From Planctomycetota bacterium (lineage in GTDB: Bacteria; Planctomycetota; Phycisphaerae; UBA1845; UTPLA1), in assembly GCA_015654675.1 (NCBI GenBank), contig JAATGM010000030.1, positions 1-64,000 of the forward strand: 64,000 nucleotides of DNA. Direction: 5' to 3'. The notes beneath the pieces are model-generated. The model was not told where the DNA came from and ran no database searches. It saw only the letters and a list, made by a program, of their open reading frames with translations. Positions 47,665 to 59,160 of this stretch are shown here, one piece after another; position 1 is the stretch's first letter, and each line of letters begins with the position of its first letter. The position numbers were made by a program, and so were the translations under genes.

Positions 47665-48046
47665 GGGCCGATGTCTCCCGCCGGCGCCGCCAGGCGCTCA
47701 TCGCGACAAGCCCCGTCAGCGCGCCTACGGCATCCGCGAACCAGTCGCTCAGCTCGCAACTTCGACCAACCAGCGGCTGCGTAATTTCGTCCATCGCACC
47801 GTAGGCGAGCAGGATCGTGAACCAGATGGCCTGGCGCCGCATGGTCGGACGCGACGCGGGCGCCCAGACCGCGATTGCGGCGAGCCCGGCATAGGCCGTC
47901 CCATGCAGCAGCCAATCGGGCACGCCGGAAGCAAGTCGCATGGCGCGCGTGGTAGGCGGCAAGTGTGTCGCGATAAAAATTGCGAGCCAATAAAGGGCCC
48001 AGATGCAAATCCGCCACAACGGCGTCCGCGACTGGGTGGAAGTCAT
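47657..48046 (-). CDS. VanZ family protein
   Basis: 129 residues. About four hydrophobic segments and the VanZ signature 'DEITQPLVGRSCELSDWFAD' with 'AVGALTG'. The start overlaps the end of the ParA gene (ATGA, 48043-48046), so it is coupled to it. Membrane-located; function unknown. Confidence 0.8.
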   Translation of the reverse strand: MTSTQSRTPLWRICIWALYWLAIFIATHLPPTTRAMRLASGVPDWLLHGTAYAGLAAIAVWAPASRPTMRRQAIWFTILLAYGAMDEITQPLVGRSCELSDWFADAVGALTGLVAMSAWRRRRETSAHA

Positions 48047-49206
48047 GAACTGGCGACCGGCTCGGGGACGGAGGGCGACGCCGGTGCGGACGCGGGGGCC
48101 GGTTTGCGCGTTGGCGCCGGCTTGGGCCTCGGTTTCTCAATTGCGGCCGGTGGTACCACTGCGGCTGGGGCGGCCGGGACCGGCTGCGCGACCGGGGTTA
48201 CTGGTGCGGGAGGCCTGGGTTTCGCGACGGCCGGACGCGGTGGGGTGGTCGGGGCTGTTGGCTTCGCAATCGCTGGCGCTACTGAAGGCGTCGGTGCCGG
48301 TACGGCCGGCGGCGCCGAATGCACTACTTTCGGTTTTGTCACGGGCTTGGCCGGCGGCTCGGGTGTTACAACTGATTCGGGCTTCGCCGCGACGGCGGCG
48401 GGCGCGATCGGCTCTGGTTTCACCGGCGGCAGAAGCTCGGCCGCGAGCGCGAGATAGTCCTCGGCGCCGTGGCTTTTCGGGGCATACTGGAAGATGGTCT
48501 TGCCGTAGCTGGGGGACTCGGCAAGTTTCACGTTTCGCCGGATGCGCGTGCTGAAGATTCGCGCATGGCGCCACGGGACGTCCTGATTGCGCGACTCCGT
48601 CAGGAATCGATCGACGTCGTCCACCACTTCGGCGGCAAGCCGCGTGCCCTTTTCATGCATGCTCAGAACCAACCCGAGCACGGTCAGTTCAGGGTTCAGC
48701 CGTTTCGCGACCAGTTGCACCGTCTCGAAGAGCCGGCCGACACCCTGCAATCCAAGAAAGTGCGCCTGAAGCGGGATCAGCACTTCGCGCGCCGTGCACA
48801 GCGCGTTGAGCGTGAGCACGCCGAGCGACGGTGGGCAGTCCATCAACATCCAGTCGTATTTCAGATTTCCGGCCGACAGCGTGTCGCGAAGAATCAGTTC
48901 GCGGGCGATCGTGTTGGCCAGTTCGACCTCGGCGGCGGCGAGATCAATTCGAGTCCCGATGACCGAAATTCTTTTGTCGATCGTGCGGATGCAATCCTTC
49001 AGCTCGGCCGTGCCGGCCAGCAGCTCGTAGGTGCCGGGAGTTCCATCCTTGGGGTCGATTCCGAAATGGGCGGTGAGGTGGGCCTGCGGGTCGAGGTCAA
49101 CGAGAATGCACTTCGCACCCCGCTCGGCCAGGGCCGCGCCGAGGTTCACAGTGGTCGTCGTTTTGCCGACGCCCCCCTTCTGATTTAGTACGGCGATACT
49201 TCGCAT
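48043..49206 (-). CDS. ParA-family ATPase with Pro/Ala-rich tail
   Basis: 387 residues. 'VLNQKGGVGKTTTTVNLGAA' is the deviant Walker A of ParA/MinD ATPases; 'ILVDLDPQAHLTAHFG' and 'DWMLMDCPPSLGVLTLNALC' follow. The ATPase domain ends near residue 265 and a tail of about 120 residues is almost only Pro, Ala, Val, Lys and Thr. No ParB is adjacent, so a chromosome-partition role is uncertain; a role in positioning another cargo is possible. It precedes the VanZ gene in a coupled arrangement. Confidence 0.9.
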   Translation of the reverse strand: MRSIAVLNQKGGVGKTTTTVNLGAALAERGAKCILVDLDPQAHLTAHFGIDPKDGTPGTYELLAGTAELKDCIRTIDKRISVIGTRIDLAAAEVELANTIARELILRDTLSAGNLKYDWMLMDCPPSLGVLTLNALCTAREVLIPLQAHFLGLQGVGRLFETVQLVAKRLNPELTVLGLVLSMHEKGTRLAAEVVDDVDRFLTESRNQDVPWRHARIFSTRIRRNVKLAESPSYGKTIFQYAPKSHGAEDYLALAAELLPPVKPEPIAPAAVAAKPESVVTPEPPAKPVTKPKVVHSAPPAVPAPTPSVAPAIAKPTAPTTPPRPAVAKPRPPAPVTPVAQPVPAAPAAVVPPAAIEKPRPKPAPTRKPAPASAPASPSVPEPVASS

Positions 49207-49321: not shown

Positions 49322-49361
49322 AAAAAATGGAAGGTGCTGCCGTGGCGTGAGCACCTTCCAT
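49322..49361 (-). terminator. Intrinsic terminator of the Lys-rich microprotein gene
   Basis: A 12-base stem (ATGGAAGGTGCT with AGCACCTTCCAT) and an 11-base loop. Reading leftward the stem is followed by TTTTTTA, as expected for an intrinsic terminator. It lies 69 bases after the microprotein stop and before the ParA gene, so the microprotein forms its own transcription unit. Confidence 0.85.
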
Positions 49362-49429
49362 TACAGCTTCGAGTCTCTGACCGTGTGTCGAAGACCCGAC
49401 CCGCGCGACTACGCGCGCGTGATCAAAGC

Positions 49430-49486
49430 TTACCTCTTTTTCTTCTTGGCTGCCTTCTTTTTGGTGGCGCGTTTCTTTTTGGCCAT
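49430..49486 (-). CDS. 18-residue lysine-rich microprotein
   Basis: ATG at 49486, TAA at 49430-49432. The product is MAKKKRATKKKAAKKKKR: ten Lys and two Arg of 18. The ATG is preceded at eight bases by a near-perfect AAAGGAGGTGA, and a promoter (49514-49541) and a terminator (49322-49361) flank the gene, so it is a complete transcription unit of about 180 bases. The composition resembles the repeat unit of histone H1-like or Hc1-type DNA-binding tails, so nucleic-acid binding is likely; this is inference. It is too short for standard gene calling. The divergent Gph gene starts 106 bases away. Confidence 0.75.
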   Translation of the reverse strand: MAKKKRATKKKAAKKKKR

Positions 49487-49513
49487 GAGCGTCACCTCCT
49501 TTCTAAACTACGA

Positions 49514-49541
49514 AGTGTAAGAATCGCATGGGGCTTGTCAA
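49514..49541 (-). promoter_or_regulatory. Sigma-70-like promoter of the Lys-rich microprotein
   Basis: Reading leftward: TTGACA (49541-49536), a 16-base spacer, and TACACT (49519-49514; four of six match TATAAT). The predicted start near 49507 gives a leader of about 20 bases ending in the strong Shine-Dalgarno. Confidence 0.65.
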
Positions 49542-49591
49542 CACAAATCAAGCCCTCTATTGTTTTTTTTCGGCTGCAAGTGGCACGCAAC

Positions 49592-50278
49592 ATGATTCAA
49601 TCCGCGCATCAGACCAACTCTCCGACCGCGCGCGGCGTCATCTTTGACCTCGATGGAACGCTCGCCGACACCTTGCGCGACATCGCGAACGCGCTGAATC
49701 ATGCGCTGCGCGCCGCGCATCGCCCCGACGCGCCCATCGACGCAATTCGCAGCTGGGTCGGTGAAGGATTGCCCACGCTTTGCCGCCGCGCATGGCCTGA
49801 GGCCGACGGAAATCAGATCCAGGAGCTCATCCGGAATGCAAAATCACAGTATGCCGCCCATCCGATGGATCACACCGTGCTATACCCCGGCGTCCGCGAG
49901 CTTTTGACCGCGCTTGCGGCGCGTTCGGTGCCCCTCGCCGTGTTCTCGAACAAGCCGCACGACCTGACCGTCACCACCGTCAGCGGACTTGGCATCGAGT
50001 CGTTCTTCTCGGAGGTCCGGGGCTATCTTTCGGAGGATGAGAAGAAACCCTCGCCTGTCGCCGCGATCAGGATGGCCGACGGCTGGCGCATCCCCGCCGA
50101 TCGAATCGTGTTTGTGGGCGATAGTGCGACCGATCTTGCCACCGCGCTTGCCGGCGGGATGATTTCCGTGTCCGTCACATGGGGGTTTCGGTCACGCGCG
50201 GAGTTGGAGGCGGCCGGCGCGAAGTGCTTTGTCGATCATCCCGCCGAAATCCTTCGGATGTTCGACGGGCCAAATTAG
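49592..50278 (+). CDS. gph: HAD-family phosphatase, phosphoglycolate phosphatase-like
   Basis: 228 residues from the ATG at 49592; an upstream extension of the frame crosses the microprotein gene and is rejected. 'RGVIFDLDGTLADTLRDIAN' is HAD motif I (DxDGT), 'LAVFSNKPHDLTVTTVSGLG' motif II, and 'PADRIVFVGDSATDLATALA' motif IV. The Gph-type cap is present. It most likely dephosphorylates phosphoglycolate or a similar small phosphate ester. Convergent with pyrK, overlapping by four bases. Confidence 0.85.
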   Translation: MIQSAHQTNSPTARGVIFDLDGTLADTLRDIANALNHALRAAHRPDAPIDAIRSWVGEGLPTLCRRAWPEADGNQIQELIRNAKSQYAAHPMDHTVLYPGVRELLTALAARSVPLAVFSNKPHDLTVTTVSGLGIESFFSEVRGYLSEDEKKPSPVAAIRMADGWRIPADRIVFVGDSATDLATALAGGMISVSVTWGFRSRAELEAAGAKCFVDHPAEILRMFDGPN

Positions 50279-56510: not shown

Positions 56511-57165
56511 TGGTACCGGCGCGCTTCCAATCTAGTGAAGCATTCCCGCGTTAGATAGCGGGATATCGTGATATTGCAGGTGTGCGCTGCGATTTTGAGC
56601 GCCGCCGACGCGTCTGGCGCGATCTTGCGACATTGTGTGGCTTGAATTGCTGACACGCAACCAGCGTGCCAACGGAATTCCGTTTCGTCGCAACCACCCC
56701 ATCTGCGGATGCTTGCATACCCCGATTCCCCCTGAGCGTTCGCCCGCTCGAACTAAGCCAACAATTTCGCCGTTAGAATGAGTGTGCCGAGTGTCGGGCG
56801 AACATCGCCCGGCAACGGGGAACCCAACGCGGCCGGGACTGCCATGTGTAGTGGCGAGCCAGGTCGCAGGGGCGTATCCGCCGCAAGGCGGTAGCAGACT
56901 CCACGCTGCGAGCCCGTCAGCTAACCCCGTAGGCATCGCTGGAGCAAGGTCATGAGTGCCGTTCCGTAAGCCCATCGCCCCGGTCACCGCGTTTCCCCAA
57001 TCCGGCCGAGCCGCTACGATCGCGCTCCCGGATTCATCCGATCTCGTTGGCGCCGCGATGATTGCGCAGGCGCCCTGAAGCTCGCGGCCGCGCGTTTCGC
57101 GCGTCGAGCAAGAAACGTCCCCGCTCGCGCGGCGTCCATCGCCGGCGCGGCAAAGGAGTACCAAC
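56511..57165. other. Hairpin-rich intergenic region, unassigned
   Basis: About 655 bases with no convincing gene. Between about 56770 and 56990 there are several strong local hairpins: CGGGCG-aacat-CGCCCG (near 56797-56813) and CCGCC-GCAA-GGCGG (near 56878-56891) with a GNRA-type tetraloop. The text around 'GGGGAACCCAACGCGG' and 'CCCGTCAGCTAACCCCGTAG' recalls parts of group II intron RNAs, but I found neither the 5' GUGYG end nor domain V, nor a reverse transcriptase. It could be a structured RNA or an intron remnant. The SPFH gene follows with AAAGGAG. Confidence 0.35.
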
Positions 57166-59160
57166 ATGTTGGCCTTCACACTCGCATCGCTTTCCGGAAA
57201 CCTGCTGGTGGTGTTCGGCGTCTTCGCCTTCATCATCGCGCTGACCGGCATTCGCTACATCCCGAACGACCGCGTCGGCGTCGTCGAGAAACGCTGGAGC
57301 AGGCGTGGCTCGGTCACGTCCGGACTCATCGCCCGGAATCGCGAGGCCGGCTACCAGCCCGACGTATTGCGCGGCGGCCTGCATTACCTGACGCCGCTGC
57401 AATTTCGCGTTCACAGCGTGCCGCTGGTGACCATCCCGCAGGGCCGCATCGGCTATGTCTTCGCTCGCGACGGCATGCCGCTTCAGCCCACGCAGACCCT
57501 GGCCTCCAACATCAAGGCCGACGGCTTTGAAAACGTGGCCGAATTCTTGTCCAACGGCGGCCAGCGTGGCCCGCAGCGCAAAATCCTCCGCGAGGGCACC
57601 TACGCGCTGAACCTGGCCCAGTTCGTCATCATTACCGCCGACCAGCTCTACTTTCTCCCGCTGGAGGATGATGACCGCGCCGTCATTACGCGAATGGCCA
57701 CGATCATCAACGATCGTAGTGGCTTCGAGCCGCTCGTCATTCAGGGCAGCGAAGATATGCTCGGTGTCGTCACCGTCCATGACGGTCCGTCGCTCGGCGA
57801 CGGCGAGATCATCGCCCCCGTCGTCGGCAATCACCCGGCCGACAGCGACGTCTTCCACAACAACTTCCAGGACCCCGAGCGGTTCCTCTTCGCCGGTGGC
57901 CGGCGCGGCCGTCAGCTTCAGGTGTTGGTGGATGGCACGTATTACCTCAATCGCCTCTTCGTGACGATCGAATTGATTCACAAGTCGGTCGTCGAAGTCG
58001 GTTTCGTCGGCGTGGTGGTATCGTACACGGGCGAGATCGGCGCCGATCTGTCCGGCACCGAATACAAGCACGGCGAGCTCGTCCTCAAGGGCCAGCGCGG
58101 CGTCTGGAACGAGGCCCTGCTGCCCGGCAAATACGCCTTCAACACCTACGCCGGCAAGATCATTCTCGTGCCGACGACCAACTTCATCCTCAAGTGGATT
58201 CGCTCGGAAAGCGGCCAGCACCGTTTCGACGAAAACCTCAGCGAGGTCTCGCTCATTACCAAGGACGCCTTCGAGCCGTCGCTGCCGCTCTCGGTCGTCG
58301 TCCACATCGACTACCGCAAGGCCCCGCTGGTCATCCAGCGCTTTGGCGACGTGAAGCGCCTCGTCGAGCAGACCCTCGACCCGATGGTCTCGGCCTACTT
58401 CAAGAACATTGGCCAGACCCGTACGGTCATCCAGCTTCTGCAAGACCGCGCGATGATCCAGAAGCTCGCCGGCGAGGAGATGCAGGATCGCTTTGCCCAC
58501 TACAACCTCGAGCTCGAAGAAGTCCTCATCGGCACGCCCACCGCGTCGGCGGGCGACAAGCGGATCGAAGACATCCTCACGCAGCTTCGCGTCCGCCAGA
58601 TCGCCGAGGAGCAGGTCGAGACCTACGGTCGCCAGGAAAAGGCCGCCATCAAGGAGCGTGAGCTCCGCGAGGCCGAGTCTCGCGCCCGGCAGCAACAACA
58701 GCTCACCGAGTCCGAGGTGTCGATCGTCGTGCAGTCCAACCAGGGCAAGGCCGAATACCAGCGAGCGCTGCAGCAGGCCTCGCAGATTCGCGCCCTCGCC
58801 GAGGCCGAGGCCGAAAAGGCGGCCCGCATCGGTATTGCCCAGGCCATCGCCATCGAGGAGCAGGTGCGTGCTTACGGCGGTCCGCAGTTCCAGCTCACCC
58901 AGCAGGTGATGAACCGCTTCGCCGAGGCCATCCAGCAGTCGTGCGTCGATGTCGTCCCCAAGGTCGTCATCGGCGGCCACAACGGCGATGGCGCCAACGG
59001 CTCCGGTTCCTCCAGCGTCATGGAGGCCCTGCTGACGATGCTCCTGTCCGATCGGATGGGTGTCGGCCTGACAACGACGACGCCCCGGCCGGCCAATCCG
59101 CAGGCCGACGAGCTGCGCTCGCAGATTCGCCGTTCGATCGCGGCCCCGAAGTCAACGTAA
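57166..59160 (+). CDS. SPFH/flotillin-like membrane protein
   Basis: 664 residues. One N-terminal membrane helix ('GNLLVVFGVFAFIIALTGIR') is followed by a long SPFH-like region ('EAGYQPDVLRGGLHYLTPLQ', 'PLSVVVHIDYRKAPLVIQRF'), and residues about 470-600 are a charged coiled coil ('RQQQQLTESEVSIVVQSNQG', 'ALAEAEAEKAARIGIAQAIA'). The plan matches large bacterial flotillin/prohibitin-like scaffolds that organise membrane domains. The start has a good AAAGGAG. It is followed 13 bases later by a zinc-ribbon gene. Confidence 0.85.
   Translation: MLAFTLASLSGNLLVVFGVFAFIIALTGIRYIPNDRVGVVEKRWSRRGSVTSGLIARNREAGYQPDVLRGGLHYLTPLQFRVHSVPLVTIPQGRIGYVFARDGMPLQPTQTLASNIKADGFENVAEFLSNGGQRGPQRKILREGTYALNLAQFVIITADQLYFLPLEDDDRAVITRMATIINDRSGFEPLVIQGSEDMLGVVTVHDGPSLGDGEIIAPVVGNHPADSDVFHNNFQDPERFLFAGGRRGRQLQVLVDGTYYLNRLFVTIELIHKSVVEVGFVGVVVSYTGEIGADLSGTEYKHGELVLKGQRGVWNEALLPGKYAFNTYAGKIILVPTTNFILKWIRSESGQHRFDENLSEVSLITKDAFEPSLPLSVVVHIDYRKAPLVIQRFGDVKRLVEQTLDPMVSAYFKNIGQTRTVIQLLQDRAMIQKLAGEEMQDRFAHYNLELEEVLIGTPTASAGDKRIEDILTQLRVRQIAEEQVETYGRQEKAAIKERELREAESRARQQQQLTESEVSIVVQSNQGKAEYQRALQQASQIRALAEAEAEKAARIGIAQAIAIEEQVRAYGGPQFQLTQQVMNRFAEAIQQSCVDVVPKVVIGGHNGDGANGSGSSSVMEALLTMLLSDRMGVGLTTTTPRPANPQADELRSQIRRSIAAPKST

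Follow-up and report, generated by a model that had tools for sequence, protein, structure and literature searches.

A conserved lysine-rich microprotein gene of Phycisphaerae and its fixed-loop 3' hairpin: a candidate dual-function RNA

Does an 18-codon, lysine-rich frame surrounded by a full set of expression signals constitute a gene, and does the hairpin at the end of its transcript do more than terminate it? These questions are raised by a short segment of a planctomycete contig, of which a stretch of 64,000 nucleotides (the window) was analysed. A first-pass annotation of the sequence had described a complete transcription unit for a lysine-rich microprotein at this position. All elements of that unit are present, on the minus strand, and the frame and its signals are conserved in relatives. 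The unit and its neighbours are made up as follows.

49541-49536, minus strand: -35 element TTGACA of a sigma-70-type promoter
49519-49514, minus strand: -10 element TACACT, with a 16-nt spacer from the -35 element
49492..49502, minus strand: near-perfect, 11-base Shine-Dalgarno sequence AAAGGAGGTGA
49430..49486, minus strand: 18-codon frame MAKKKRATKKKAAKKKKR plus stop (ATG at 49486, stop at 49432-49430)
49363..49429, minus strand: 3'UTR of about 70 nt from stop codon to terminator; the fold predicts accessory hairpins in it, among them GGUCUUC...
49322..49362, minus strand: conserved hairpin and intrinsic terminator with T run
49362-49350 / 49338-49326, minus strand: terminator stem AATGGAAGGTGCT/AGCACCTTCCATT, 13 pairs in the fold
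49339..49346, minus strand: near-invariant loop GCCACGGC
49327-49322, minus strand: run of six T, 3' of the terminator stem
48043..49206, minus strand: ParA/Soj-like ATPase gene, next downstream (Pfam AAA_31, 1e-52)
49592..50278, plus strand: gph-like HAD phosphatase, divergent neighbour

The promoter TTGACA-16-TACACT (49514..49541, minus strand) is found as first described; it has a consensus score of 10/12, and orthologues in the family are preceded by the same arrangement (TTGACA ... TAGACT/TACACT). The terminator and its T run also stand, but the stem forms 13 pairs in the fold and not the 12 given originally. The window hairpin has a folding energy of -22.2 kcal/mol (z = -6.2), and the fold of the unit's transcript has z = -4.3. 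A hairpin of the GGTCTTC...GAAGACC type occupies the same 3'UTR position in several members of the family. The genome itself contains only one SD-MAKKK frame and only one strong hairpin. On the opposite strand, the longest open frame of gph runs from a GTG at 49334 to 50278 (plus strand) and covers the greater part of the microprotein unit, so a gene call based on the longest frame would hide the small gene; a start at 49592 suits the HAD domain of the gph-like gene.

In a DNA search of 150 relatives, two blocks prove to be conserved, one comprising the Shine-Dalgarno sequence and the start of the frame and the other the hairpin; the sequence separating the two is not conserved. The loci that were read have a family-wide layout of AGAAAGGAGGTGACGCTN-ATG, a frame of 20-78 amino acids (for example MAKRKKKSATKKKATKKKRK) and then the hairpin. 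Frame statistics were compiled from 92 loci at which reading confirmed a true hairpin. In 80 of the 92, the hairpin is preceded by a K-rich frame of 15-140 amino acids, a strongly positive outcome of the search in relatives that the first reading had proposed. The K-rich frames consist of 54% lysine, 21% alanine and 5% arginine, and have 5 acidic residues among 3,862. They start with MAK in 73 of the 80 loci and are preceded by a Shine-Dalgarno sequence in 78; the near-consensus site of the window was correctly recognised, and the full AAAGGAGGTGA is identical in 47 of the 80 orthologous loci. Promoter scores of at least 10/12 were found in 51% of 79 loci compared with 2% in shuffles. The full signal set had been considered unlikely to arise by chance, and chance co-occurrence of promoter, Shine-Dalgarno sequence, frame and terminator is rejected because the unit is conserved class-wide, the same combination recurring throughout Phycisphaerae.

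The three closest pairs of equal length, a small sample, differ at 9, 10 and 26 sites in codon positions 1, 2 and 3 respectively, and single changes in the same pairs are synonymous in 16 cases and nonsynonymous in 5. Judged by such comparisons, the K-rich frame is a coding gene under selection and would be translated into a microprotein of the kind that a dual-function RNA carries. A protein search with the 18-mer gave no match except itself; the peptide is too short and of too low complexity to reveal relatives in this way, so DNA and RNA models were needed. The K-rich proteins tested had no match in Pfam or NCBIfam at the cut-off.

The first-pass description did not include the most unusual feature of the unit: its terminator hairpin is an RNA element found class-wide, with a covarying stem and a loop that stays fixed. 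A covariance model (R1) was built from 21 hairpins, and covariation was seen over these 21 and then over 91 sequences. When R1 is run on the genome of the window, the window hairpin is found with E = 4e-12 and nothing else is comparable; among 248 genomes of the class, 100 have matches at E <= 0.01. Across the 91 hairpins, double changes occur at each of the 14 proposed pairs (153 cells versus 41 in shuffles), and 94.6% of the cells pair compared with 33-51% when the register is slid. The stem sequence is almost wholly replaced between families (GGAAGGTGCT, GAAGGCGTC, AGAAAGCTTC) and the loop GCCACGGC is kept, being exact in 70 of the 80 K-rich loci and in 11 of the 11 loci of family f4, which lack the frame. 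This conservation suggests that the loop is recognised by something, either protein or RNA. A house-style or repeat terminator was ruled out because the genome has only one such hairpin, the single strong R1 match. A known RNA family was also ruled out, since Rfam 15 gave no match at the gathering threshold nor at E <= 1.

The reading that we prefer, with a probability of roughly 0.62, is that the unit is a small, strongly expressed gene that would supply a polycationic peptide and a 3'UTR recognition hairpin from one transcript, as a dual-function RNA. The strong promoter and the near-perfect Shine-Dalgarno sequence would give high peptide synthesis. The product would be a Lys/Ala polycation of 18 amino acids in the window and 15-140 in relatives, predicted from its composition to be disordered, and the same composition suggests that it most likely binds polyanions (DNA, RNA or polyphosphate) and condenses them in the manner of H1 or AlgP. 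The hairpin would double as terminator in most lineages, with compensatory change of the stem under the fixed loop GCCACGGC, and the loop would be a recognition element either for a protein or RNA acting on the transcript or for the transcript acting in trans. The transcript would be abundant, some 190 nt in length, with its 3' end at the T run. A more far-reaching version is put forward tentatively, at somewhat short of even odds: a class-wide dual-function gene in which the mRNA of a polycationic microprotein has at its 3' end a hairpin recognised through its loop. Such a gene would be a bacterial parallel, arisen by convergence, to the histone-mRNA stem-loop or to dual-function sRNAs, and in one family its RNA would persist as a stand-alone noncoding RNA.

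The foremost alternative is an ordinary mRNA, expressed at a high level and encoding a K-rich H1-like peptide, in which the hairpin is just a strong terminator and 3' stabiliser conserved because it works well. We regard this as unlikely, even though a T run follows the hairpin in most loci, the fold is stable and unrelated terminators are found after the K-rich gene in several lineages. Termination does not need a fixed loop, and here the loop stays when the stem changes almost completely; there is also a single such hairpin in the genome of the window, which is not what a house-style terminator would give. Family f4 tells further against it, in that the invariant hairpin (GATGGAAGGT..GCGCCACGGCTAGACCTTCCATC) is present in 11 of the 11 genomes read and the K-rich frame is absent there. 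These sRNA-like f4 loci have a promoter-like region, and the sequence just upstream of the hairpin is not conserved. Four genomes of family f8 (G065, G067, G069 and G071) also argue against a plain terminator, because they carry the loop on a separate non-terminator hairpin (CCGGCTCACGCCACGGCAGTCGG) in the same 3'UTR, and their terminators have lost the GCCACGGC loop; some other f8 genomes have the loop hairpin in two copies. The retention of the hairpin without the frame in f4 and the displacement of the loop from the terminator in f8 suggest that the RNA element is more than a terminator, and since hairpin and loop survive where the peptide is lost, the RNA itself probably has a job.

The f8 loci L024, L025, L026/L058, L212, L213, L225 and L226 have an extra GCCACGGC-loop hairpin in the 3'UTR, apart from the terminator, and in L025 the loop of this extra hairpin varies slightly from GCCACGGC.

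Separation also occurs in the opposite direction. A limited search of the f4 genomes revealed in G038 a K-rich gene without the loop about 69 kb from the hairpin, and G030 (family f5) has a degenerate frame next to the hairpin and, at another place, a clean K-rich gene, again without the loop. The loop is lost and the K-rich gene kept in f23, in parts of f9, f18 and f20, and in one f17 and one f21 genome, so the loop is dispensable for the peptide. From their distribution, the peptide and the RNA module are usually linked, yet separable. Families f4 and f5, where RNA and peptide have come apart in nature, offer ready-made controls.

The neighbouring genes bear on a second alternative, a lysine leader peptide combined with an attenuator of the downstream gene (Soj-like here, lysA in f23), which we consider highly improbable. 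A short frame rich in lysine codons and followed by a terminator would suit such a mechanism, and the next gene downstream often shares the strand of the unit, as does the Soj-like gene in many loci of f1, f12, f13, f15, f17 and others, and lysA in f23. However, which gene lies downstream varies by family, and it is often encoded on the opposite strand (aspS, pantothenate kinase and sensor kinases, the last named by eye), so cis attenuation is ruled out as a general function; a fixed linkage to one downstream gene on the same strand is not what the loci display. Moreover, the frames reach 140 amino acids, the distance from stop to terminator varies across loci from tens to almost 200 nt, and the fold of the unit's transcript offers no evident alternative antiterminator. 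In f23, the gene that comes after the unit, in the same orientation, is lysA (diaminopimelate decarboxylase), assigned by NCBIfam in L046 and by eye in L093, and there may be a lysine link in this family.

The Soj-like gene is also seen by eye behind K-rich genes without the loop, so its linkage appears to be independent of the loop. The Soj-like gene of the window (48043..49206) scores below the cut-offs of the ParA-family models of NCBIfam. The unit had been expected upstream of gph in relatives, and this is true within the family, as gph is a neighbour in nearly all f1 loci; the arrangement is not conserved across the class, where the ParA/Soj-like downstream gene is more widespread.

Two further explanations have next to no probability. 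The f4 version is apparently noncoding, but a noncoding small RNA in which the K-rich frame is incidental A-rich sequence would hardly have a Shine-Dalgarno sequence in 78 and a MAK start in 73 of 80 loci, almost no acidic residues, in-frame length variation from 15 to 140 amino acids and substitutions concentrated in third positions. Poly-lysine runs slow ribosomes and the Shine-Dalgarno match is unusually long, as a ribosome decoy that sequesters or stalls ribosomes and makes the peptide as a by-product would have it, but the composition and the coding constraint persist up to 140 amino acids and many K-rich genes have a Shine-Dalgarno sequence weaker than AAAGGAGGTGA.

Bacterial H1-like proteins rich in lysine are a known kind, as are dual-function RNAs, and the preferred reading of a dual-function transcript can be compared with each. 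Metazoan replication-dependent histone mRNAs encode a basic chromatin-type protein and have a conserved 3' stem-loop. In contrast, the unit described here is bacterial and its hairpin is a co-transcriptional terminator; the likeness is one of analogy only, not homology. We know of no counterpart of the conserved 3' RNA hairpin among Hc2 and other H1-like proteins. The K-rich frames resemble chlamydial Hc2/HctB and bacterial H1-like proteins (Pfam HC2 PF07382; NCBIfam NF038053) in being Lys/Ala/Thr-type low-complexity sequences that vary in length by repeats, a variation that is strong in chlamydial Hc2 (PMC2848022), and they are Lys/Ala-rich polycations with an HC2-like composition. They differ in that versions of 18-26 amino acids without any other domain exist. 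The PF07382 profile gave no match for relatives of 20, 78 and 82 amino acids, and reached 24.8 bits (cut-off 40) with the SWIB-fused protein L028. This protein (from G105) has K-rich repeats and a C-terminal SWIB domain (Pfam 7e-28), with no GCCACGGC hairpin detected, and is a relative of the K-rich proteins in composition.

In Pseudomonas, the even spacing of polyphosphate granules depends on the AlgP tail, which is thought to bind DNA (PMC9239181). The C-terminal tails of AlgP and PhaF, involved in the tethering of polyphosphate and PHA granules (PMC9239181), are disordered Lys/Ala-rich polycations like the peptide predicted here. Unlike the present unit, which encodes a tail-like, mostly Pro-poor peptide alone, AlgP combines KPAA repeats with a folded N-terminal domain. 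A short transcript with a microprotein frame and a conserved RNA element is likewise found in SgrS/SgrT (PMC4021124) and in VcdRP, a dual-function small RNA with a 29-aa protein (PMC8672173). The unit here differs from both in that the loop of a terminator-type hairpin is conserved, the peptide is a polycation and the parts are separable in evolution.

No description of the stand-alone peptide of 15-26 amino acids, of the class-wide loop hairpin or of their coupling was found in the databases and literature searched, which is weak evidence of novelty. A conserved gene with frames of 15-26 amino acids and low complexity is likely to be missed by standard annotation, and the analysis adds a structured RNA element that is absent from Rfam. 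As far as searched, the gene and the RNA element are confined to one class, whose members are known mainly through metagenome assemblies. Should the loop have a partner, the unit would offer an RNA recognition system that is simple, open to direct test and tied to a peptide of chromatin type.

Among named records, nearly all that contain the hairpin pattern are assemblies of Phycisphaerae or of unclassified Planctomycetota, with taxonomy taken from the record titles. A phage origin was rejected, as the hairpin pattern had no match in viral contigs. Weak matches were obtained in other classes of Planctomycetota; the eight that were read proved to be ordinary terminators with neither the GCCACGGC loop nor a K-rich frame, and L104 is a false positive of the same kind. 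One locus, L106 (JANQQE010000024.1), is titled Alphaproteobacteria and probably comes from a mislabelled planctomycete assembly (compare G023:C1 of f8).

Elsewhere in the window, a c-di-AMP (ydaO/yuaA) riboswitch at 56775-56950 (plus strand) scores above the gathering score. The 664-aa ORF downstream of it (57166-59160), without a match in NCBIfam, is SPFH/flotillin-like by eye.
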